NCBI RefSeq assembly: GCF_029867415.1
Contig: NW_026705216.1
Coordinates: 558,001 to 622,000 of the forward strand
From: Vicia villosa
Lineage: Eukaryota; Streptophyta; Magnoliopsida; Fabales; Fabaceae
Direction: 5' to 3'
DNA: 64,000 nt
The notes under the pieces are model-generated. The model did no database searches, had not been told where the DNA came from, and was given only the letters and a program-made list of their open reading frames with translations. Within the stretch, counting starts at the first letter, position 1, and every line of letters starts with the position of its first letter. Of the stretch, positions 24,867 to 64,000 are shown one piece after another. Both the position numbers and the translations under genes were made by a program.

Positions 24867-24908
24867 GATGTTTGCGATGGGTCAGTATTGAATTTTTGTC
24901 TGTGTTTA

Positions 24909-27900
24909 ATGATGATTGGACAAATAAACATTATAACTTGGAATTGCAAAGGAGCTGTGGGTAAAGATTTCTTTAGGTTTAGTAAATATTACAATGATAT
25001 TTATAAATCTGAGATATTTGTTTTCATGGAAACTAGAAGTAATCCAAGAAATTTGCACGGTCCTCTTCAAAAGCTGGGGTTTCTACATTTTACTGAAGTT
25101 GACAACCTTGGTTATGCGGGAGGAATTTTGGTAGCAAGCAAAGAAAGTATTTTGAAGGTGAGTCTGATTTGTAGGGGTGACCAATTCATTCACATGCAAA
25201 TTCATAATAAGCAAGGGTTTGAATGGGTGTACACAATGGTGTATGCTAGTCCTAATGAAGGGAACAGAAGACTGCTTTGGGATAATATGAAAGTTATAGC
25301 CAATAATAATCCTAAACTGTGGCTAGTAGCCGGAGATTTCAACGATATAGCTTTTGCCAACGAAAAATAGGGTGGGAGTCTTGTGTCTGCTCGTAAGTGC
25401 AGTATACTTAGAGATAACATGGAAATGTGTAAGTTGTGTGACCTTGGTGCTAATGGTCCCGGGTTCACATGGAGAGGGCCGATATTTCAAGGAGGTCAGT
25501 GGATCTTCGAAAGATTGGATAGAGCTATTTGTAATGAAGAGTGGAGATTGCTGTTCACGGAAGCGCAAGTGAAAGTTCTTACTAGAGTTGAATTTTCTGA
25601 TCACCATCCAATTATGATTGCGTTGACAAACAGTAGCCATGAGAGGATTCCTAAACCGTTTTGGTTTGAGAGTGCTTGGATGGTGGACAACAAGTATATA
25701 GATAGATTAAGGGGATTTTGGAATAAACAGGATGATTTTATGAAAAATCTTCAAAGAGTTGAATCTGATGCAAATGAGTGGAAGTCTTGTTCAGTTCAAC
25801 ATGTGCAAAAGGTTAAAAGATGTATTATGGCTCGTCTCCAAGGTATCCAAAGAGGCATTCAAGATAAGCATAATATTTCCGGCCAGTTGAGGTTAGAGAA
25901 AAAGCTGCAGGGGCCAGGGGGAGCTCAAAACAATCTTGCGCCAAGAAGAACTCATGTGGTTCCAGAGATCTAGAGCTCAATGGTTAGTTAATGGTGATAG
26001 GAACACGAAATACTACCATTTAAAGACAGTGGCCAAGAGAAAAAGTAACATGATCCTCATGATTAAAGATGACAGTGGCTTGTGGATAGAGGATAGTGAA
26101 AAGATCAAAGACTTGGTAAATGATTACTACAAAAAGTTGTTCACTATTGGGAGTAACTGGAATAGTTGGAAGCAAACTGATATATCTTATCCTAGCATGT
26201 TGGAGGCTGATATTGCAAAATTGAATGCTAAGGTGTGCAAGGAGGAAGTCAAGAAAGCGGTTTTTGATATGAAACCGTGGAAGGCTCCTAATCCAGACGG
26301 TTTTCCTACGGGATTCTATTAAAAATCTTGGGGGATTGTTGGTGATAGTGTGTGTGAATTTGTGAGCAGAATGTGAGAGAATCCTAGTGAGATTGGTCTT
26401 GTGAACAAAACTGATATCTGTCTTATTCCTAAAGTTGAGAATCTGAGTCAGGTGTCTTAATTTCGACCAATTTCTCTGTGCAATACTATATACAAAGTCT
26501 TAAGCATGATTGTGGTAGGAAGGCTAAAGAGTCACATGGATAAGTTGATATCTCCATACCAAACAGGTTTTGTCCCTGAAAGACTTATTCATGAAAATTA
26601 TTATAGCCAAGGAGGCTATGCATACGATGGAGAATATGAAAGGGAAAAAAAGGAGCTTTTGCGATTAAAGTTGATCTGTCTAAAGCCTATGACAAGTTGA
26701 GCTAAGATTTTATTTGGCAAACCTTAAGAGAAATTAAAATTCCGGATAACATGTTGAATGTAATAATGCACTCAGTTTCAAGTGTTGAAACAAACGTGAA
26801 TTGGAATGGAAGCAGGAATGATTTCTTCAGGCCGCAAAAAGGTATTCGTCAGGGTGATATGATTTCTCCGTACTTGTTTGTCATGTATATGGATAAATTG
26901 TCTCACTTAATTGAAGAAGAAGTTATGAGTAAAAGATGGAAAGGTTTGAAGTTAGGTAAACTAGGCATTATGGTGTCGCACCTTATGTTTGCCGACGACT
27001 TACTTATCTTTGGAGAAGCCTCTGAAGATCAAATCACGTGTGTTATGGAAACTCTTGATAATTTCTGTTATATGTCTGGTCAGGATATTAGCCAAGAAAA
27101 GACAAGTATACTTTTTTCAAAAAATGTTCATAGGAGTATGCAAGCAAAAATCCAGCATATTACCAAGTTCAGGAGTGTGAAAAGCTTTGGAAGGTATTTG
27201 GGAGTTCCGCTAAATGGGAAGAGGCTCAACAAAAGTGATTGTAGATATATTGTGGATCAAGTTTCTATGAAGCTTAATGGTTGGAAGAAGAAAAGTCTGG
27301 CTTTGGCCGGAAGAATCACCTTGGCAAAAATTGTAATCGAAGCTATCTCGTTATACCCTATGATGACATGTAAGTTACCTAAATCATGTATCGATACCAT
27401 TGAAAGTATGCAAAGGAAATTAGTGTGGGGCGAGACAGATGGAAACCGGAATATCCATGCGGTGGCTTTGGACACTGTTAAGCTGCCGAAAGAGTTAGGA
27501 GGCACGAGATTAAGAGATTTGAATGTGTTGAACCAAGTGTGCTTAATGAAGATTGGATGGCATATGTACAATAAATCCAGTGATTTCTGGTGCACGATTT
27601 TGACAAGTAAGTACAACATCCATGATAGTAAGGATATTCTAAGAATAAAACCTAATGCTTCGAGTCTTTGGAAGGATGTGGTTAAAACTCTCCCTAACAT
27701 GATGAACACAAGAGGTTGGGTGGTGGGAGATGGAAAGAATATTAGGTCTTGGGAAGATACTTGGTTAGGGTGTGATATTAGGTTGTGTAATGAGAATGTG
27801 GTCATTCCAGATTATCTAAAGGAAGTTACAGTTAGTGATCTTCTTAATGAGAATGGCGAATGGAATCTTGCGATATTGGATACCTGGCTGCCGAATCATT

Positions 27901-28339
27901 GGCTGGAGAAAATCACAGCTTGCATGCCCCCTAGCATGGAATCAACCGCTGACGTTTTTTATTTTGCAGGTACCGGTAAGGAGGAATTTTCGATCAAGGA
28001 AATGTTTAAGGAGATTAATGGCTATAATAATGAGAAGGTTGATGGAGATTGGAATAGGATTTGGAAAGCGTCGGTGCCGGAGAGGTGTAAAAGCTTTTTG
28101 TGGCTACTCAAGCATGATCAGTTATTAACAAATCTCAGTAAGAGTAAAAAGAGCCTAGGTAGTTCGGGCTGCAATCTTTGCGGTAACACTTGTGAGACTA
28201 CCATGCATGCTTTGAGGGACTGTTCCATCTGTGCTCAGGTTTGGAAGATTGTGGTTCCTAGTGACATGCTTGTGGAATTTTTTACAGCTGATCAAGATAA
28301 GTGGATCAAGATGAATCTCAATTATTGAGGCAATGCTAA
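24909..28339 (+). pseudogene. LINE (L1-type) ORF2: endonuclease, RT and zinc-finger part
   Basis: From the ATGs at 24909/24912 the frame starts with an AP-endonuclease (INIITWNCKG, METRS, GDFNDI, later SDHHP). Reverse transcriptase follows, with KGIRQGD-SPYLF near 26840-26880 and FADDLLIFGEA near 26990. Then comes a zf-RVT part (VPERCKSFLWLL, CNLCGN...HALRDC) near 28070-28220. Breaks: TAG at 25368; a 7-bp near-duplication at 25907-25920 that shifts the frame; stops at 26320, about 26374 and 26458 (the first and last look like CAA to TAA); a further shift near 26600; TGA at 28326. From 26751 to 28328 it is open (525 codons). It continues after the solo LTR at 30246. Confidence 0.9.
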
Positions 28340-32800: not shown

Positions 32801-32941
32801 TATAAATTAAAATTATATAAAAATATTTTAATTATGTTTTAATTAATAATTATATAAAAAATTAAAATAATTTTTTAATAAAATTATATAAAATCTCCTT
32901 AATAACTTTCCATATAAACTCCCAATTAAGTTTATATAAAA

Positions 32942-34075
32942 ATGAAGGCTATTATGCCGCCACAGCAGGATGGTGGGGAAGATAAGTTCATGCTTGCTGG
33001 CTCCGGTGATGGTGATTTTTCGGTCAAGGCTATGTATCAGGCGCTAGCAGGGATAAATAGTGGGAGAGAAAACAAATGTTGGGAGTATATTTGGAGATTG
33101 AGAGTTCCTGAAAGAATTAGGAGCTTTTTATGGTTGGTCTATCATGAGAAACTTCTGACCAATATGAATAAAAGTAGACGTGGGCTAGGCACTGCAGCAT
33201 GTATTTTGTGTGGGAATGTTCTTGAGAGTAATATGCATGCATTGAGGGACTGTTGGAAGGCTCAAAAGGTTTGGAACATCTTGAAGCCCACTGGTTATGT
33301 GAGGAGTTTTTATACGCAGCATGATTTTAAGAAATGGTTTGAAGAGAACCTCAAGGTGCACCGTAAGCATGATGATTCTTGGTGTCAGACTTTTGCTACA
33401 TGTTGCTACTTCATTTGGATGTGGAGAAATTTGGAGGTGCATGGTGGTAACGGGAGCCGGCCGTTTGATCCTGGCCTATTCATTTCTCAGAAGGTGCAAG
33501 AGTATGAGAAAGCTAGTGAGATGAGAATATATGGTTTTGCTAATATGAATTATGAGAGGAACTCCACTTGGTGCCCTCCTCGTATAAACTGGGTGAAGAT
33601 GAATTCGGATGGTGCTTGTAGAGGTAATATGGTGGTTGGTTGTGGAGGTGTGATCCGGAACCATCTTGGAGATTGGTTGGGTGGTTTCTCAAAAAGCTTG
33701 GGTATGTGTAATTCTTTTATTGCAGAACTTTGGGGTGTGTTTGAGGGTCTAAAACTCGTTGTAGCTTTTGGTTATTGTTACGTGGAAATCAATGTTGATT
33801 CAACCTTGGTGGTGGAAGCGGTTGATAAAGGTAGCGCTAATCAGATTGGTAGCCTGGTGATCCTTGATAAGATTAAATTACTTATGGCCAAGCTGGATGG
33901 TGTTCTAATTGCTCACTCGGTTAGAGAAACGAATATGTGTGCTGACACTCTTGCTTCTGTTGGGTGTAATCAAAAGTCGGAGATGATGATTTATAGTTCG
34001 CCTCCTACTTATATTTCTAGGTTCTTAGCTGAGGATGCCTTTGGGCTGACCTCTGCTAGGTGTTTTCCTCCTTAG
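32942..34075 (+). CDS. 5'-truncated LINE ORF2 end, fully open (zf-RVT + RNase H, 377 aa)
   Basis: The frame is open over 377 codons. Residues ~20-115 are the zf-RVT region (VPERIRSFLWLV; C-x2-C near 87-90; HALRDC near 98-103). Residues ~215-345 are an RVT_3-type RNase H with D223 (MNSDGA), E262 (AELWGV), D286 (INVDST) and D335 (MCADTLA), so all four acidic residues are kept. It aligns with the end of the LINE at 27900-30945 from the ACMPP/AIMPP position on. Endonuclease and RT are absent, as usual for a 5'-truncated copy. It may simply be young; expression would need an outside promoter. Confidence 0.8.
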   Translation: MKAIMPPQQDGGEDKFMLAGSGDGDFSVKAMYQALAGINSGRENKCWEYIWRLRVPERIRSFLWLVYHEKLLTNMNKSRRGLGTAACILCGNVLESNMHALRDCWKAQKVWNILKPTGYVRSFYTQHDFKKWFEENLKVHRKHDDSWCQTFATCCYFIWMWRNLEVHGGNGSRPFDPGLFISQKVQEYEKASEMRIYGFANMNYERNSTWCPPRINWVKMNSDGACRGNMVVGCGGVIRNHLGDWLGGFSKSLGMCNSFIAELWGVFEGLKLVVAFGYCYVEINVDSTLVVEAVDKGSANQIGSLVILDKIKLLMAKLDGVLIAHSVRETNMCADTLASVGCNQKSEMMIYSSPPTYISRFLAEDAFGLTSARCFPP

Positions 34076-54671: not shown

Positions 54672-55595
54672 TGTAGATGCTTTTGATTGGCTGTATTTTT
54701 TGGTAAAACAAATAGTGTCTGTATCATGTCAAACCTGGTGTCATGATATGCATTGTTTTTGAAGTTTTTCTTGTGCAGGCTTTTACCTGATGTCAAGACC
54801 GATGTCATGACATCCGAAGCTGATGTGTTTTATTATGTTCTCAGCATGGTTGTTTGATCTGTTAAAACTTTGCGCGCCTCTTTTGGAAACTTTGGATATT
54901 GAGTTGTTTCAGAACAACGTTATGCGATGTTTATTCATAGGATCTTTGTTTTATGGAAATGGTTTTAAATTGTTTTAAAACTAATATTGGATCCAAGGCC
55001 CAGCTGCTGCAAGGTTATTTATAACATTTGAAGAAGCTGCTGTATGGGGTGGTTTTCGTTAGGGTTTGCCGTCAAGAAGTTGGTTGTGTTTTTTTCGTTT
55101 GTGTTGTAGTTTTCATGTAAGCCAAACAATCATGATGATGATTGTCTTGGTCTAGGTGTTTTGTTTTGTGTTGTAAGAAGTACTCAAAGCTTCTAAGCAA
55201 GAGTACTATTGTACTTGATCAAAGCTTTTAAGCAAGATCAAGTTGTGTTTTGAAGAGTGTCTTCTTTTGTTTTTCATCTGTTAGTTCTTCATCACTGCTG
55301 TGATTGAGGGGGAGTGAGTAGGAGCTCTGGTCTAGCGGTTTAGATTGAAGTTGCATTGGGTAGATATTAAGTGAAAGGCGTAATATTGAGTTGTATTACC
55401 TTGAATTAATATTACTTATAGTGGACTTCCTCCCTGACTTGGTAGCCCCCAGATGTAGGTGTGTTTGCACCGAACTGGGTTAACAATTTTCCTGTGTTGT
55501 TTTTCTGTTTGCACTTTGTTCATTTGTTTAAAAACATTCAGATAGTGATGTCGTGACATCCTGTAAGACATCGCGTGTCTGAGTCCAGAATTTCA
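54672..55595 (+). repeat. 5' LTR of intact Sirevirus (924 bp)
   Basis: Starts TGTAGATGC and ends CCAGAATTTCA. It matches the 3' LTR at every base except position 54973 (T; G at 61145). A TATA-like TTATTTATAA lies at about 55015-55024. A perfect 14-bp palindrome GATGTCATGACATC lies at 54801-54814, with a near copy, GATGTCGTGACATC, at about 55547-55560. The block with GGTAGCCCCCAGATG near 55441 is shared with the old LTR at 3233. Confidence 0.97.
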
Positions 55596-55597
55596 AT

Positions 55598-55609
55598 TGG
55601 TATCAGAGC
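55598..55609 (+). promoter_or_regulatory. Primer-binding site (initiator Met tRNA)
   Basis: TGGTATCAGAGC starts two bases after the LTR end. It is the standard copia primer site complementary to the 3' end of initiator methionine tRNA. Confidence 0.95.
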
Positions 55610-55664
55610 AGGCACCCTGCCTGTTTTTACTGGGTGAGATCTAGGGAAAGTATTTTCTGGTTCG

Positions 55665-58600
55665 ATGGACAAAGAAGGTGGTGGATTTATAATGAGACCA
55701 CCCATTCTGGATGGCTCTAATTATGATTATTGGAAACCTCTCATGGTGGCTTTTCTGAAATCCGTGAACAGCAAAGCATGGAGAGCTGTGAACAAAGGAT
55801 GGGAACATCCTGTTATTACTGATAAAGATGGCAACAAAACTCTTAAACCAGAGGAAGATTGGGACAAAGATGAAGAGGCATTGGCGCTTGGCAACTCTAA
55901 AGCTCTAAATGCTTTATTTAATGGAATTGACAAAAATATATTCAGACTAGTTCACCAGTGTGAACTAGCCAAAGATGTCTGGGATATCCTAAAGACTACT
56001 CATGAGGGCACCTCCAAAGTGAAGATGTCAAGACTTCAACTGCTAACTACAAAATTTGAAAATCTAAGGATGAGGGATGATGAAAGTATTAAGGATTTTC
56101 ATATGAATTTACTCGATATTGCTAACACCTCAGGAGCTTTGGGAGAAAAAATGTCTGATGAAAAGTTGGTGAGGAAAATCCTTAGATCCCTACCTAAGAG
56201 ATTTGATATGAAAGTTACAGCTATAGAAGAGGCACAGGATATCAGCAAAATGAAGGTAGAGGAGTTAATTGGATCCCTTCAAACCTTTGAGATGGGAATC
56301 AATGAAAATTCTGAAAAGAAGAACAAAAGCATAGCTTTTGTGTCCAACTCTCAAGAAGAGGTTAAGGAAAGTAGAGAAGAGAATGTATCTGAATCTATAG
56401 CTATGCTTGGTAAACAATTCAACAAAATTATGAGAAGGATGCATCAGAAGTCAAGACCTAATGTCCAGAACATCTCATCTGACATCAATAGATCTTATGA
56501 CTCTGGCAGAGGAGTTAAACCAGAAGAAAAGTACAACCACAACAAAGGGATCCAATGTCATGGATGTGAAGGGTATGGACATATTAGAGCTGAATGCCCT
56601 ACTTATCTCAAGAAACAAAAGAAAGGATTGTCAGTCTCCTGGTCTGATGAAGATTCTGAGAGTGATTTTGAAGAAGAATCAGCCAAACATGTCACAGCCC
56701 TTACTGGAGTGTGCAATTCTGATGAAGATGCTAGTGAAGATGAGCTAACCTTTGAAGAACTGGCAATTTCATACAGAAAGCTGTGTATCAGAAGTGCTGA
56801 AGTATGTCAACAAGGTGAAAAGCAGAAGAAATACATAGCCCAGTTGGAAGCTAATAACAAAGAGCTTAATGAAACTATATCTGAACTGAATGGTGAAATT
56901 ATCCTGCTACAATCCAAACTTGATCAGATGTCAAAATCAGTAAAAATGTTGAACAGTGGCACGGATATGTTGGAGGAGATCTTGCAGGTTGGAAAAAGTT
57001 CAAGAGATATGTCTGGTATAGGATTTGTTGGTGCAAAGAAAAATGTCCAAGATAGTAGCAGAACTAAACCTGAAGCTGAGATGTTGAAGCCGATGTCAAA
57101 ACATGTGACTCAACATCACGAGAAAGGTAAAATGAAGAGAAAGTTTCAAAGATGGAGATGTCATTACTGTGGAAGATTTGGACACATTAAGTCTTTTTGC
57201 TTCAGACTATATGGATATCCAGATCAAACTCCTTCTTACAAACCTAAGCAGATCATGCCCATCCAGAAGCAACAATGGAAACCTAAAAGTATGGCTTTAA
57301 TAGCCCATACATCTCTTAGAGTTTCAGCCAAAGAAGACTGGTATTTTGATAGTGGATGTTCCAGACACATGACTGGAATCAAAAATCTGCTTGTTGATAT
57401 CAAGAGTCATTCTACTAGTTATGTAACCTTTGGTGATGGAGCTAAAGGAGAAATCAAAGGAGTTGGAAAATTAGATTGTTCAGGAGTGCCAAATTTAGAA
57501 GGTGTTTTGTTGGTCAAAGGCCTGACTGCCAATCTCATAAGCATCAGTCAACTCTGTGACCAAGGATACCAAGTCAACTTCACCAAAGCTGAGTGTGTGG
57601 TTATTAATGAAGAAAAGGAAGTTGTAATGAGGGGTGTCAGATCCAAAGATAACTGCTACTTGTGGGTGTCTCATGAATCCAGCTATTCTACTGTTTGTTC
57701 TAAAGAAGAAGAAGCAAAGCTGTGGCACCAAAAACTTGGGCACCTTCATCTAAGAGGTATGAAAAGAATTATTTCTCTGGAAGCTGTAAGAGGAATTCCT
57801 AAGCTACAAATTGATGAAGGAAAAATATGTGGTGAATGTCAGGTAGGAAAACAAACCAGGATGTCACATCCAAAGGTTAAACATCTGACTACTTCCAGAG
57901 TTCTTGAACTTCTACATATGGACTTGATGGGACCAATGCAAATAGAAAGTCTTGGAGGAAAGAAATATGCTTATGTGGTTGTGGATGACTACTCCAGGTA
58001 CACTTGGGTAAACTTCATCAGAGAAAAGTCAGATGTGTTTGATGTTTTCAAGGACCTATGTCAAAGAATTCAAAGAGAAAAAGAAAATGGTGTTGTGAGA
58101 ATTAGAAGTGATCATGGAAAGGAATTTGAGAATCAAAAGTTTGCTGAGTTCTGCTCCTCTGAAGGAATACATCATGAATTCTCTTCCCCTATTACTCCAC
58201 AGCAAAATGGGGTTGTTGAAAGAAAGAATAGAACTATTCAAGAATCAGCAAGAGCCATGATCCATGCTAAGAATCTTCCTATCTACTTCTGGGCTGAAGC
58301 CATGAATACTGCTTGTTATGTCCATAATAGAGTTACCTTAAGAAAAGGAACCTCTACCACCCTGTATGAGATCTGGAAGGGAAGAAAACCCACTGTCAAA
58401 TACTTCCATGTGTTTGGTAGTAAGTGTTACATTCTTGCTGATAGAGATCACAGGAGGAAGATGGATCCCAAGAGTGATGAAGGAATCTTTCTGGGCTACT
58501 CTACAAACAGTAGAGCTTATAGAGTATTCAACTCAAGAACCAAAATAATAATGGAATCCATAAATGTTGTGGTTGATGATGTTCACAATCAAGCAGATGT

Positions 58601-60359
58601 CACAGAAGATGTCGGAACATTCTGGGATCTTACAGCAGAAGGTTCTACAAGAGAAGATGATTGCAGTCCCACTACCACAGAAGCTGAGACTGAACCCCCT
58701 AACAAGAGTCCTTCTATAAGAATTCAGAAAGATCATCCTAAAGATCTTATTATAGGAGATCTCAACAGTGGAGTTATTACAAGGTCAAGAGAAGTTGTCT
58801 CAAACTCTTGTTTTGTGTCAAAAATTGAACCTAAAAATGTCAAGGAAGCATTAACAGATGAGTTCTGGATTAATGCCATGCAGGAAGAACTAGGCCAGTT
58901 TGAAAGAAATGAAGTATGGGAGCTGGTACCAAGACCTAAAGATACTAATGTCATTGGAACTAAATGGGTTTACAAGAACAAGTCAGATGAACTGGGAACT
59001 GTTATCAGAAACAAAGCAAGGCTAGTTGCTCAAGGATACACCCAAGTTGAAGGAATTGACTTTGATGAAACCTTTGCTCCTGTAGCCAGACTTGAGTCAA
59101 TTAGGCTATTGTTAGGGATTGCATGTATTCTGAAATTCAAACTATACCAGATGGATGTGAAGAGTGCTTTCTTGAATGGATATTTGAATGAGGAAGTCTA
59201 TGTAGAACAACCTAAAGGTTTTGCAGATCCAAACCACCCTGATCATGTATACAAATTAAGAAAAGCTCTTTACGGTTTGAAACAAGCTCCTAGAGCTTGG
59301 TATGAGAGACTAACTGAGTTTCTTACTAGCAATGGATACAGGAAAGGAGGGATAGATAAAACTCTTTTTGTTAAAGATGAAGAAGGGAAGATTCTGATAG
59401 CTCAGATCTATGTGGATGATATTGTATTTGGTGGGATGTCAGACAAGATGACTAGACATTTTGTTGATCAGATGCAATCTGAATTTGAAATGAGTCTAGT
59501 TGGAGAATTAACCTATTTTCTTGGGCTGCAAGTCAAACAGATGGAAGACTCAATCTTTCTCTCTCAGAGCAAGTATGCTAGAAACATTGTCAAAAAGTTT
59601 GGAATGGAAAATGCTTCTCACAAAAGGACACCAGCACCTACCCATTTGAAGCTGTCCAAAGATGAAAAGGGAACCAGTGTTGATCAAAGTCTATACAGAA
59701 GCATGATAGGAAGTCTGTTGTATCTTACAGCCAGTAGACCTGATATTGCCTTTGCTGTTGGGGTATGTGCTAGGTATCAAGCAGAACCCAAAACCAGCCA
59801 TATCAATCAAGTCAAAAGGATCCTGAAATATGTGAATGGTACTTGTGAATATGGAATGCTCTACTCTCATGGGTGTGAACCCATTCTCACTGGATATTGT
59901 GATGCAGACTGGGCAGGAAGTGCTGATGACAGAAAAAGTACTTCAGGAGGGTGTTTCTTCTTGGGTAATAATCTTATTTCATGGTTCAGCAAGAAACAAA
60001 ATTGTGTGTCCCTGTCCACTGCAGAGGCAGAATACATTGCAGCAGGAAGTAGCTGTTCTCAGCTTGTTTGGATGAAACAAATGTTAACAGAATACAATGT
60101 CACACAAGATGTCATGACATTATATTGTGACAATTTGAGTGCCATCAACATTTCAAAGAATCCCATTCAGCATAGCAGGACCAAGCACATTGATATTAGA
60201 CACCATTACATTAGAGATCTTGTTGAAGATAAAACAATTGTCTTGGAACATGTTGCTACAAATCTTCAACTAGCTGATATTTTCACAAAAGCCTTGGATG
60301 CAAATCAATTTGAAAATCTAAGAAGCAAACTGGGCATTTGTCTTTGTGAAGGATTATAG
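55665..60359 (+). CDS. gag-pol: Sirevirus Gag-Pol polyprotein, intact (1564 aa)
   Basis: One open frame with ATG at 55665, 56 bases after the primer site. Gag is residues ~10-220 (UBN2-like), with two zinc knuckles at C298-C311 ([14 protein letters not shown]) and C499-C512 ([14 protein letters not shown]) separated by an acidic, coiled-coil-like stretch. Protease is D562-S-G. Integrase: H688, H693, C722, C725, then D753, D816 and E852 with the D-x35-E spacing. Reverse transcriptase: D1164 (MDVKSAF) and Y1249-V-D-D. RNase H: D1413, E1454 and D1489. All catalytic residues looked at are present, with no stop or shift. Two knuckles and the gag N-terminus place it with the Sirevirus (SIRE) group. 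It produces the particle and enzymes for retrotransposition. Confidence 0.97.
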
Positions 60360-60419
60360 CAATTAATTGGGTGTGCGACCAGCACTATAGCTCACTTGAA
60401 TGTCAAGTATACTCAGCTG

Positions 60420-60602
60420 ATGGTGGTGATGATAATACTGTTGGTTTTGATGGCTGATGAGTTTAAGGATGCTGATGCCCGGATTAGTAGTTCCAGTGAA
60501 GTGGAAATGAGTAAGGAGGATACTGAAGATACTGCTGGTTCTGAAGTGAAAATCTTTATCTGTTGTTTGGCTCCTTTTGTGGCTAGAAAGGGGGAGAAGT
60601 GA
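60420..60602 (+). CDS. Small ORF (60 aa) between pol and 3' LTR, hydrophobic N-terminus
   Basis: ATG at 60420, 61 bases after the pol stop. Residues 1-11 are a hydrophobic run (MVVMIILLVLM), followed by ADEFKDADARISSS, acidic serine-rich sequence, a short FICCLAPF patch and ARKGEK; the last codons lie in a purine tract. The N-terminus looks like a signal peptide. It lies where Sireviruses may have an env-like ORF but is much shorter. It could be a captured host fragment, a vestige or chance. Confidence 0.3.
   Translation: MVVMIILLVLMADEFKDADARISSSSEVEMSKEDTEDTAGSEVKIFICCLAPFVARKGEK
60585..60599 (+). other. Upstream polypurine tract
   Basis: AGAAAGGGGGAGAAG, an extra copy of the purine tract about 245 bases before the 3' LTR; multiple tracts are a Sirevirus signature. 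Confidence 0.65.
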
Positions 60603-60831
60603 AAGTGATAGATGATGACTTGGTTGTTGCTGGTATGATGACTTGGTTGTTGCTGGTTGTTTGCTGTAATTGTTTCTCTGTGTTACTTTTGGTTCCTTGG
60701 ATGTACTATATTTAATCAAGCAGGATGTTGTTGGCTGACAGAATTTTTTTTCTCTGGATTCTTGTTTCTATTGGCTGCTGTGTGTAATCTCTGATGGTAT
60801 CATCTATTATTGTTTTAGCCAAAAATTCGCC

Positions 60832-60841
60832 AAAGGGGGAG
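60832..60841 (+). promoter_or_regulatory. Polypurine tract (plus-strand primer)
   Basis: AAAGGGGGAG two bases before the 3' LTR start at 60844. Confidence 0.9.
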
Positions 60842-60843
60842 TT

Positions 60844-61767
60844 TGTAGATGCTTTTGATTGGCTGTATTTTTTGGTAAAACAAATAGTGTCTGTATCATG
60901 TCAAACCTGGTGTCATGATATGCATTGTTTTTGAAGTTTTTCTTGTGCAGGCTTTTACCTGATGTCAAGACCGATGTCATGACATCCGAAGCTGATGTGT
61001 TTTATTATGTTCTCAGCATGGTTGTTTGATCTGTTAAAACTTTGCGCGCCTCTTTTGGAAACTTTGGATATTGAGTTGTTTCAGAACAACGTTATGCGAT
61101 GTTTATTCATAGGATCTTTGTTTTATGGAAATGGTTTTAAATTGGTTTAAAACTAATATTGGATCCAAGGCCCAGCTGCTGCAAGGTTATTTATAACATT
61201 TGAAGAAGCTGCTGTATGGGGTGGTTTTCGTTAGGGTTTGCCGTCAAGAAGTTGGTTGTGTTTTTTTCGTTTGTGTTGTAGTTTTCATGTAAGCCAAACA
61301 ATCATGATGATGATTGTCTTGGTCTAGGTGTTTTGTTTTGTGTTGTAAGAAGTACTCAAAGCTTCTAAGCAAGAGTACTATTGTACTTGATCAAAGCTTT
61401 TAAGCAAGATCAAGTTGTGTTTTGAAGAGTGTCTTCTTTTGTTTTTCATCTGTTAGTTCTTCATCACTGCTGTGATTGAGGGGGAGTGAGTAGGAGCTCT
61501 GGTCTAGCGGTTTAGATTGAAGTTGCATTGGGTAGATATTAAGTGAAAGGCGTAATATTGAGTTGTATTACCTTGAATTAATATTACTTATAGTGGACTT
61601 CCTCCCTGACTTGGTAGCCCCCAGATGTAGGTGTGTTTGCACCGAACTGGGTTAACAATTTTCCTGTGTTGTTTTTCTGTTTGCACTTTGTTCATTTGTT
61701 TAAAAACATTCAGATAGTGATGTCGTGACATCCTGTAAGACATCGCGTGTCTGAGTCCAGAATTTCA
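60844..61767 (+). repeat. 3' LTR of intact Sirevirus (924 bp)
   Basis: The same length as the 5' LTR with one difference (61145). It is followed by the GAGGG duplication at 61768-61772. Near identity of the LTRs indicates a very recent insertion. Confidence 0.97.
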
Positions 61768-62356
61768 GAGGGCTTCTACTCACTTTCAAAACATATCATA
61801 AAACATATTTTTATAACTTTCTCACTCTCTGCTTTTTTTCTCATTTGTTTCTTTTTCAATAAATTTCTTTAGTGCTTTGTGAGTGAAAAGTATCGGTAAG
61901 GTGTACTTTTATCTATTGTGGTGTTGGATATTATTGTAGTTTACACAAGAGAAATTTATCTCTTGTGTAATATCTCTTGTGAGAAGTTGTTTTTTGGTTT
62001 TTGAGCTTAGCCAATAAAATCTATTATTTGGTTTGTGAGATTGTTCGTTAAAATCTTTATTTGGTTCGTGAGTTTTTCCCGATGTAAAAGCTTTTGCTTG
62101 GTTTGTGAAATTGTCCGTCAAAATATCGGTTTGGTTCGTGAGCTTAGCCTAGTGTAAAATCTGTAACACCCCGATATCCGCTGCACGCATCAACCGTGTC
62201 GGCCAACCGAGCATGTTACCCGGCTTAATCAATAATCCCCCTAGGTCCGCTTATCGGCTGCCCAGGAAATATTGTTTTTGCCTCCCGCAGGAATCGAACC
62301 ATGTACCTAGGGGTTAAGTACGTATTCATAGCAATTCCTGCTACCAATTGAGCTAG

Positions 62357-62550
62357 TAGCTCAAGTGGTAGCAGGAATTGCTATGAATACGTACTTAACC
62401 CCTAGGTACATGGTTCGATTCCTGCGGGAGGCAAAAACAATATTTCCTGGGCAGCCGATAAGCGGACCTAGGGGGGATTATTGATTAAGCCGGTAACATG
62501 CTCGGTTGGCCGGCACGGTTGATGCGTGCAACGGATATCGGGGTGTTACA
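62357..62550 (+). repeat. tRNA-like unit U1
   Basis: A box at 62357-62370, B box at 62412-62422, then GCGGGAGGCAAAAACAATAT, CCGATAAGCGGACC and a GATATCGGGGTGTTACA end. This copy has GGTAGCAGG and GGTACATGG where the other forward units have GGTAGCAAG and GGTACGTGG; its partner U' (62162-62355) carries the matching complement. Confidence 0.85.
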
Positions 62551-62570
62551 TTAAAAAGGCGCCTTTTTAA
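62551..62570. repeat. 20-bp perfect palindromic linker
   Basis: TTAAAAAGGCGCCTTTTTAA joins two dimers; an identical copy lies at 63159-63178. TTTTT within it could end RNA polymerase III transcription from the unit to its left. Confidence 0.95.
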
Positions 62571-62766
62571 TGTAACACCCCGATATCCGCTGCACGCATC
62601 AACCGTGTCGGCCAACCGAGCATGTTACCCGGCTTAATCAATAATCCCCCCTAGGTTCGCTTATCGGCTGCCCAGGAAATATTGTTTTTGCCTCCCGCAG
62701 GAATCGAACCACGTACCTAGGGGTTAAGTACATATTCATAGCAATTCTTGCTACCAATTGAGCTAG

Positions 62767-62959
62767 TAGCTCAAGTGGTAGCAAGAATTGCTATGAATAC
62801 GTACTTAACCCCTAGGTACGTGGTTCGATTCCTGCGGGAGGCAAAAACAATATTTCCTGGGCAGCCGATAAGCGGACCTAGGGGGATTATTGATTAAGCC
62901 GGTAACATGCTCGGTTGGCCGACACGGTTGATGCGTGCAGCGGATATCGGGGTGTTACA
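62767..62959 (+). repeat. tRNA-like unit U2
   Basis: The same layout as U1, with the GGTAGCAAG/GGTACGTGG variants that also appear, complemented, in its partner 62571-62765. Confidence 0.85.
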
Positions 62960-62964
62960 TTAAG

Positions 62965-63158
62965 TAGCTCAATTGGTAGCAAGAATTGCTATGAATACGT
63001 ACTTAACCCGTAGGTACGTGGTTCGATTCCTGCGGGAGGCAAAAACAATATTTCCTGGGCAGCCGATAAGCGGACCTAGGGGGGATTATTGATTAAGCCG
63101 GTAACATGCTCGGTTGGCCGACACGGTTGATGCGTGCAGCGGATATCGGGGTGTTACA
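62965..63158 (+). repeat. tRNA-like unit U3 without inverted partner
   Basis: It begins TAGCTCAATTGGTAGC, directly after TTAAG. The expected inverted partner and most of a linker are missing between U2 and U3. It has TAACCCGTAGG where the other units have TAACCCCTAGG. Confidence 0.85.
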
Positions 63159-63373
63159 TTAAAAAGGCGCCTTTTTAATGTAACGCCCCGATATCCGCTG
63201 CACGCATCAACCGTGTCGGTCAACCGAGCATGTTACCGGCTTAATCAATAATCCCCCCTAGGTCCGCTTATCGGCTGCCCAGGAAATATTGTTTTTGCCT
63301 CCCGCAGGAATCGAACCACGTACCTAGGGGTTAAGTACGTATTCATAGCAATTCTTGCTACCAATTGAGCTAG

Positions 63374-63567
63374 TAGCTCAAGTGGTAGCAAGAATTGCTA
63401 TGAATACGTACTTAACCCCTAGGTACGTGGTTCGATTCCTGCGGGAGGCAAAAACAATATTTCCTGGGCAGCCGATAAGCGGACCTAGGGGGGATTATTG
63501 ATTAAGCCGGTAACATGCTCGGTTGGCCGACACGGTTGATGCGTGCAGCGGATATCGGGGTGTTACA
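63374..63567 (+). repeat. tRNA-like unit U4
   Basis: The last unit; its TGTTACA end is the right end of the element. Its partner is 63179-63372, which starts TGTAACGCCCC (one change from the other U' starts). Confidence 0.85.
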
Positions 63568-64000
63568 AAATCTCTCTCTTGGTTCTGAGATTAGCATGGT
63601 GTAAAATCTTGTGTTTGGTTTGGAGGATATTCATTGTAAAACTCAAGTTTGATTATTAGAAGGTTCATGGACATAAACTATGAAAATATCATATCTATAA
63701 TGAAAACTCTCAAGAAGAAATTCTTGGGGGGAAAAGTAGGTCAAGTGGTTATTCGAACCTTTATAAATCTTTGGTGCAATTCTCTCATCCCTTATCTCTT
63801 TTTATTTCTTCTATTTATTTGTTTTTGTTGTGCATTTATCTCTTCCTTACTCTAATTTCGTTTTCTTTTCTTATTTTGTTGTCTACACTTTGTTTTTTAA
63901 CGAAATCATTTTAAACAATTTATTTTATCAAAGAATTTTCAATTAGACAACATTGTTCAAACTCTTATAATTCACCTCTCCCCTTTCTTGTATTTGGAGT

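Follow-up and report, generated by a model that had tools for sequence, protein, structure and literature searches.

A nested palindromic array

The element studied here occupies positions 62162-63567 of the window (by which we mean the whole 64,000-nucleotide stretch of Vicia villosa DNA that was analysed), where 1,406 bp lie between two copies of AAATC. Its seven units, each 193-195 bp long and matching a reference unit at 97-100% identity, are arranged in the order U'U, P, U'U, U, P, U'U. We refer to the head-to-head pair U'U, of 389 bp, as X, and to the palindrome that joins X units, TTA(n)GGCGCCT(n)AA, as P. All seven units contain GGTTCGATTCC and start with TAGCTCAA(T or G)TGG, and the termini of the whole element are TGTAACACC on the left and GGTGTTACA on the right. 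The features listed below come from decomposition of the array into units, from the sequence itself in the case of the palindromes, T runs and duplications, and from a listing of the junctions.

62157-62161, no strand: left copy of the target duplication AAATC, placed also by the phase of the flanking repeat array
62162-62355, minus strand: U' of X1, tail outwards
62343-62568, plus strand: predicted Pol III transcript (leader hairpin, U, and P as far as T5), from its fold with a 5' leader hairpin and a presumed start
62357-62550, plus strand: U of X1, which with U' makes up X1, the 389-bp head-to-head pair
62551-62570, no strand: first P, a perfect 20-bp palindrome, TTAAAAAGGCGCCTTTTTAA
62564-62568, plus strand, and 62553-62557, minus strand: T5 runs in the first P, candidate Pol III stops
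62571-62765, minus strand: U' of X2
62767-62959, plus strand: U of X2, with A box at 62767-62778 and B box at 62822-62832
62960-62964, no strand: irregular head-to-tail junction TTAAG, a shortened P joined to a unit head
62965-63158, plus strand: lone unit U
63159-63178, no strand: second P palindrome, 20 bp
63179-63372, minus strand: U' of X3, with the end TGTAACGCC
63374-63567, plus strand: U of X3, with the right end GGTGTTACA
63568-63572, no strand: right copy of the target duplication AAATC, placed also by array phase

The host site is an array of 34-36-bp repeats (TTTGGTTCGTGAG...GTGTAAAATC) at 62015-62161 and 63573-63660. When the element and one AAATC were removed in silico, the flanking array became continuous and in phase, which supports AAATC as a target duplication. 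A preliminary description of this DNA had proposed such a duplication, along with seven near-identical units in the order given above, head-to-head dimerisation and an A-box-like and a B-box sequence in each unit. Alignment to the reference unit confirmed the number, order and total length of the units, X recurs as a 389-bp head-to-head pair, and the two boxes were found in 7/7 window units and are conserved across the family.

Two other regions of the window resemble mobile elements. A complete Copia-type element, Sirevirus-like by reading, lies at 54672-61767, with LTRs (54672-55595 and 60844-61767) that are 99.9% identical, a single open frame of 1,573 codons at 55638-60359 and the 5-bp flank GAGGG on both sides; it is a young insertion. 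Frames that, by reading, resemble pieces of a LINE endonuclease, reverse transcriptase and RNase H are found at 24867-28328 and 32930-34075.

A dispersed family of arrays

A 27-base word of the unit has 1,499 exact copies in the 2.03-Gb assembly, while the reversed control word has none, and a genome search with the element gave at least 132 matches, with 40 of 1,162 first-look candidates scored. A 36-base stretch of the unit had no exact counterpart in viral contigs. Two sets of loci were compared: 40 from the scored candidates, picked for their likeness to the window copy, and those at the first 100 of the 1,499 word matches in coordinate order, on contig C1. After L007 (a double of L006), L051 (with the flanks of L049) and L043 (the same as L010) had been dropped before counting, 82 loci were left, 53 of them with both outer ends complete. 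L074 duplicates L075, with flanks that agree at 98.75% across 160 bases; it falls outside the 53 complete loci, and its removal leaves the pair and split counts below unchanged.

The commonest complete form is X-P-X (<><>), with 19 of the 53, followed by <><><> with nine. The window order, <><>><>, occurs twice among them (the window and L004) and its mirror once (L005), and L002 has this order plus one extra X-P in front. The order given in the preliminary description is thus a recurrent one, but in the family as a whole the 1,406-bp array is less frequent than X-P-X, the commonest complete form. The same description had proposed a non-autonomous family, and this is what the sequences of the copies bear out; it had also allowed that the array might exist only in this assembly. 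An assembly error is unlikely, since 43 loci, the window copy among them, carry their own target duplications and the insertion at L006 and L007 is alike on two contigs. These two loci (on C485 and C5, respectively) hold the same nine-unit insertion between the same flanks, with one base of length difference, and the pair is duplicated or haplotype sequence in the assembly.

The 299 full units aligned fall into subtype A (209) and subtype B (89), with one untyped, and the difference between A and B is located in the last 60 bp. A further type, C, is 154 bp long, has the ends TGTAACAGCC...GGGCTGTTACA and carries the GGCGCC palindrome. Its head is ~80% shared with A and B and its body is unrelated, so that head, ends and GGCGCC palindrome are all that the A/B and C forms have in common. 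Type C takes part in mixed arrays, and also in X units whose other arm is A or B: at L063, L075 and L094 a C arm stands head to head with an A or B arm around a centre that is usual or slightly altered. Head-to-tail junctions, 23 of which were listed (counting the L006/L007 double twice), are each distinct apart from that double.

Insertion between 5-bp duplications

An exact 5-bp target duplication flanks 43/53 complete loci (30/37 in the first set, 13/16 in the second), and all 43 are different; shuffled flanks give 1.5%. The 43 duplicated loci all have TGTAACA at the start and TGTTACA at the end, in part a selection effect: alignment to the tail decided which loci counted as complete, so that the end sequence was itself partly a criterion. 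Among the 10/53 complete loci without an exact duplication are L087, where one base differs, L088, where the duplication is apparently shifted by two bases, and L004, which is a fusion. At L034, which also lacks one, a T run plus AA, as in the outer part of P, stands ahead of the left end. When type C ends were added, duplications were obtained for L033 (CTATG) and L071 (GCTTC). L093 (1430-1640) has the duplication CTTGG and a left arm comprising just ~12 terminal bases; either a very short terminus may suffice, or the arm may have been lost later.

The LTR-integrase-like insertion suggested in the preliminary description is, as far as sequence can speak to it, supported by these 43 exact duplications, and so is that interpretation as a whole, whose sequence-testable parts hold.

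Pol III-type head and junction palindrome

Across 203 units the boxes are the least variable of the segments compared, with 0.06% variability in the A box (without position 9) and 0.27% in the B box, against 0.87-1.13% in neighbouring segments. A putative Pol III promoter head is in this sense present in the units. A run of five T is the usual Pol III stop: it occurs in the sense direction in 0/299 units (T4 in seven) and in antisense in 299/299, although this scarcity of T runs is no independent evidence, as the copies share ancestry. The usual spacing puts a Pol III start ~13-16 nt upstream of the unit, and the RNA predicted for 62343-62568 folds with a 5' leader hairpin.

ARAGORN gave no tRNA in the window, and a functional tRNA was rejected on this result; Rfam gave no 5S match in 61500-64000 at E up to 5, the unit head being tRNA-like. 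Rfam matches to microRNA precursors (MIR7526, MIR1862 and others) were all under their gathering scores and were set aside, since long inverted repeats score likewise.

The centre of P is well kept, with GGCGCC in 70/77 junctions and the end CCT(n)AA in 66/77, the other 11 being near variants or the three-base TTA. No primer-binding site was found in P, scored by a TGG start only (no TGG in 77/77), and no polypurine tract precedes the right X in any of the 77 junctions.

Fusions with a Cassandra-like repeat

At five of the 82 loci (L004, L042, L081, L085 and L095) the arrays contain pieces of another repeat, H, with 445 bases per turn: an LTR-like part of 374 bp and an internal part of 71. In sense, the LTR-like part starts with TGTAACACCCGAGG (TGTAACACCC) and ends with GGGGCGTTACA, and the internal part starts with AATGGTATCAGAG, which we take to be the usual plant iMet primer-site word. 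H copies at L004 and L042 match the 5S rRNA model Rfam RF00001 at 34.6-34.9 bits, under the gathering score of 38; those at L085 and L095 give no 5S match in Rfam at E 0.01. The layout of H is that of Cassandra, and we call it Cassandra-like on the basis of this sub-cut-off 5S likeness and the primer-site-like start.

One exact 5-bp duplication surrounds the whole composite at L042, L081, L085 and L095 (the four being CATTG, CCAGT, AAGTC and GAAAG), while L004 is without one. At L085 a unit head runs straight into the end of H. At L042 a unit head meets H head to head, and a unit tail directly precedes the primer-site-like AATGGTATCAGAG, in place of the H LTR. At L081, 330 bp (1583-1912) lie between the unit and the H piece inside one duplication. 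Since the composites sit within single 5-bp duplications, the unit family and H were joined prior to integration; the simplest means would be a template switch by reverse transcriptase within a particle that both shared.

The arms of X and their templates

Over most of their length the arms of X resemble one another closely. They differ by 0.13% at positions 1-8, 0.0% at 10-15, 0.84% at 16-130 and 4.65% at 131-193, this last figure reflecting the 13 typed X units in which an A arm faces a B arm; over positions 16-130, tail-to-tail pairs differ by 1.78% and units of different loci by 2.31%. At position 9, in the A box, where the base is T or G, the arms of X differ in 90/115 scored pairs (binomial p 8e-10; two more pairs are gapped) and are equal in 25/115, whereas tail-to-tail pairs across P differ in 33/65. 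Type C-C centres differ there in 5/7, one being the L074 double. No link was seen between centre class and body sequence (196/1,000 permutations as large).

Subtypes were compared in these pairs as well. Of 117 head-head pairs within X, 103 are of the same subtype, 13 mixed and one untyped; of 68 tail-tail pairs across P, 38 are the same, 29 mixed and one untyped. Mixed A/B pairs therefore make up 13/116 typed head-head pairs against 29/67 typed tail-tail pairs (Fisher p 1e-6), and the latter figure is close to the ~28/67 that free mixing of the 209 A and 89 B units would give.

We also examined sites that divide the four units of an X-P-X segment two and two, in 38 such segments. Outside position 9 every such split pairs the two arms of one X, none being direct and none mirror: 14 segments supply 28 body sites, and six supply 117 linked subtype sites. 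At position 9 the 38 segments give 12 direct, nine mirror and one joining arms. The majority of variable sites in these segments, 367 of them outside position 9, are differences of one unit or of other kinds, which carry no information on templates. X1 and X2 diverge by 1.21-1.62%, against 2.39% for random pairs, so these partners are not fully independent.

From the split, orientation and subtype results together, the arms of each X are, as judged by their sequences, copied from each other, and X1 and X2 derive largely from different templates, in random relative orientation. Snap-back within one molecule is not the sole origin of X, given the 13 A/B-mixed X units and those that pair a C arm with an A or B arm, which indicate that heads also join between molecules, and the existence of head-to-tail junctions calls for an added jump step.

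Terminal sequences and a candidate helper

As described in PMC4029996, the Del/Tekay U3 attachment site has TGTAACACCC at the left, and the U5 site in dicots has GGG at -8 to -10 with -1, -2, -3 and -6 fixed. Compared with this description, the termini of types A and B match the published sites on both sides, and those of type C match at the most conserved positions given. A Del/Tekay chromovirus is the probable source of the integrase, which would serve the Cassandra-like TRIM as well. The Copia-type element of the window was considered as a helper and rejected, its ends being TGTAGATGC...TTTCA. Separately, L100, the 4 kb adjoining L051, contains frames of 110, 161 and 113 codons and, at 1806-1840, a purine tract GGGGGAGAG, one T and then TGTAACGCCCC, which resembles the right-LTR start of another element of this genome.

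Alternative origins of the arrays

One alternative is a TRIM of the Helenus kind, in which X is a palindromic 389-bp LTR, P a 20-bp internal region, and copying follows the tRNA-primed LTR route with ordinary tandem arrays. The TG...CA ends, 5-bp duplications and X-P-X layout all fit, as do the tRNA-like boxes in the terminal repeat, which Helenus shares, and the fusions with a Cassandra-like TRIM, including the unit tail directly before the primer-site-like AATGGTATCAGAG at L042. Tandem TRIM arrays are also common, and PMC4717578 describes a maize array with two inverted TRIMs in one duplication. Such an element should, however, contain two LTRs that are direct copies of one template, and we found no direct splits outside position 9, 12 direct against nine mirror at it, and subtypes mixed across P; the P junctions lack TGG in 77/77, and the right X is not preceded by a purine tract. 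The usual LTR route of copying is contradicted for X because the arms match, X1 never groups with X2 outside position 9, orientation is random and mixing is near-free; a classical palindromic LTR was rejected on these arm, subtype, split and orientation data. We consider this origin unlikely.

Slightly less probable again is that gene conversion between inverted repeats, acting after insertion, has made the arms of X alike. Palindrome arms can be homogenised in this way, and no closer unit was found elsewhere in 150/234 directed head-head comparisons, against 35/136 tail-tail. Yet the tail-to-tail inverted repeats, a mere 20 bp apart, are not homogenised (29/67 mixed; 1.78% against 0.84%), a control that led us to disfavour conversion, and the process would erase the position-9 difference, which is kept in 90/115.

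A cut-and-paste or foldback (MITE-like) DNA transposon with 5-bp duplications, its A and B boxes being relics, would account for the long inverted repeats and fixed duplication length, but is less probable still, as it leaves unexplained why the arms match, why subtypes mix freely across P, why the boxes are conserved and why T5 is missing in sense, and as the fusions with a 5S-like TRIM in single duplications, which indicate joining during reverse transcription, make it less likely and the RNA-based reading set out below slightly more so.

A proposed route of copying

We think it probable that the window element is a copy of a non-autonomous retroelement family with a tRNA-derived promoter, self-primed by two paired RNAs and inserted by an LTR integrase. 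The ends, duplications, arm matching, mixing and fusions are read from sequence, and from them we infer the RNA steps and the helper.

Under this self-primed route, Pol III would start ~13-16 nt ahead of a unit, within the head of the opposite arm, and so give the RNA a short 5' hairpin. The RNA would run through one unit and stop in the T5 of P, leaving a self-complementary 3' end, AAAAAGGCGCCUUUUU. Two such RNAs could then anneal at their palindromic 3' termini, and reverse transcription on one would be primed by the 3' terminus of the other. On reaching the RNA 5' end, the cDNA would fold back on the copy of the leader and prime its own second strand, yielding an X with identical arms in which the leader alone keeps its own allele, that is, the base of the opposite arm. 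It is the position-9 exception, amid near-identical arm heads, that suggests the leader as the primer segment. Synthesis would return through P onto the partner RNA, where the fold-back would be repeated, so that one continuous strand gives X-P-X. The DNA would begin at AA|TG, directly after the U tract and with two bases outside the element proper, a form of end that LTR integrases trim; once these two bases were removed, the integrase would join the CA ends to a staggered cut of 5 bp. End-to-end template jumps could account for longer arrays, lone units and fusions, and later deletions between palindrome centres may add some arrays.

If this is true, no tRNA primer, purine tract or direct LTR is needed, and a single insertion can record two RNA molecules next to each other. 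We put it at only a little better than even that Pol III retroelements include, besides SINEs and TRIMs, a third kind to which the family belongs, one that combines RNA-dimer priming, a snap-back X and an LTR integrase and shares its particles with a Cassandra-like TRIM.

A primer site, a purine tract and direct LTRs are regarded as requirements of LTR retrotransposition, and the unit family bears the integration signature without them. The minimal parts for use of an LTR integrase would, on this evidence, be short ends, a Pol III head and a self-complementary RNA end. The copies would record mutual arm copying, the leader end, the paired RNAs and the foreign RNA copied in the same particle; RNA-dimer priming would have a natural example in the family, and the fusions offer a handle on what mobilises Cassandra-like elements.

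Relation to known elements

Within the open-licence papers searched, no description of such an element was found. Plant tRNA-derived SINEs are similar in being short, with an A/B-box head and a body without sense T5. SINEs, however, end in A or simple-repeat tails and have duplications of variable length, whereas the unit family has fixed TG...CA (TGTTACA) ends and 5-bp duplications. MITE and foldback elements share with it terminal inverted repeats and a fixed duplication length. DIRS elements are not known to leave a target duplication. DIRS-1 is alike in its inverted terminal repeats, but it differs in its tyrosine recombinase, circular intermediate and coding capacity, according to PMC5633606, where the unit family has 5-bp duplications and no coding part.

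Del/Tekay elements share the attachment-site sequence at both ends of types A and B and differ in being autonomous, with LTRs of 1.1-4.4 kb; they are likened to the unit family through the published site description (PMC4029996). The tandem Zma-SMART TRIM arrays have several repeats in one 5-bp duplication, in one figure case inverted (PMC4717578). They differ in having direct LTRs and an internal region, and inversion is there one of several arrangements, whereas the head-to-head arrangement is the rule in the unit family.

In Cassandra, too, the terminal repeat has a Pol III promoter that comes from a small RNA gene, and according to PMC10886601 no autonomous partner is indicated for it. The Cassandra-like H, whose ends are similar, is fused to the unit family inside single duplications. 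Cassandra differs in its 5S head, direct LTRs and primer site, and what is reported for it is long tandem arrays, not head-to-head units. Helenus (TRIMp3; Kojima 2024) is, in PMC10886601, an element with two direct LTRs, the longest of 323 bp, a primer-binding site and a polypurine tract, for which one plant species, Selaginella moellendorffii, is named there. It resembles the unit family in being non-autonomous, in the A and B boxes of its terminal repeat, in its 5-bp duplications (in plants and fungi) and in its presumed insertion by an LTR integrase. Unlike Helenus, the unit family is without direct LTR copies, primer site or purine tract, and its terminal block is a head-to-head dimer. The copying route that we infer fits no family known or found, the integration step is of a known kind, and the closest known elements are the Helenus and Cassandra TRIMs, Cassandra by description.
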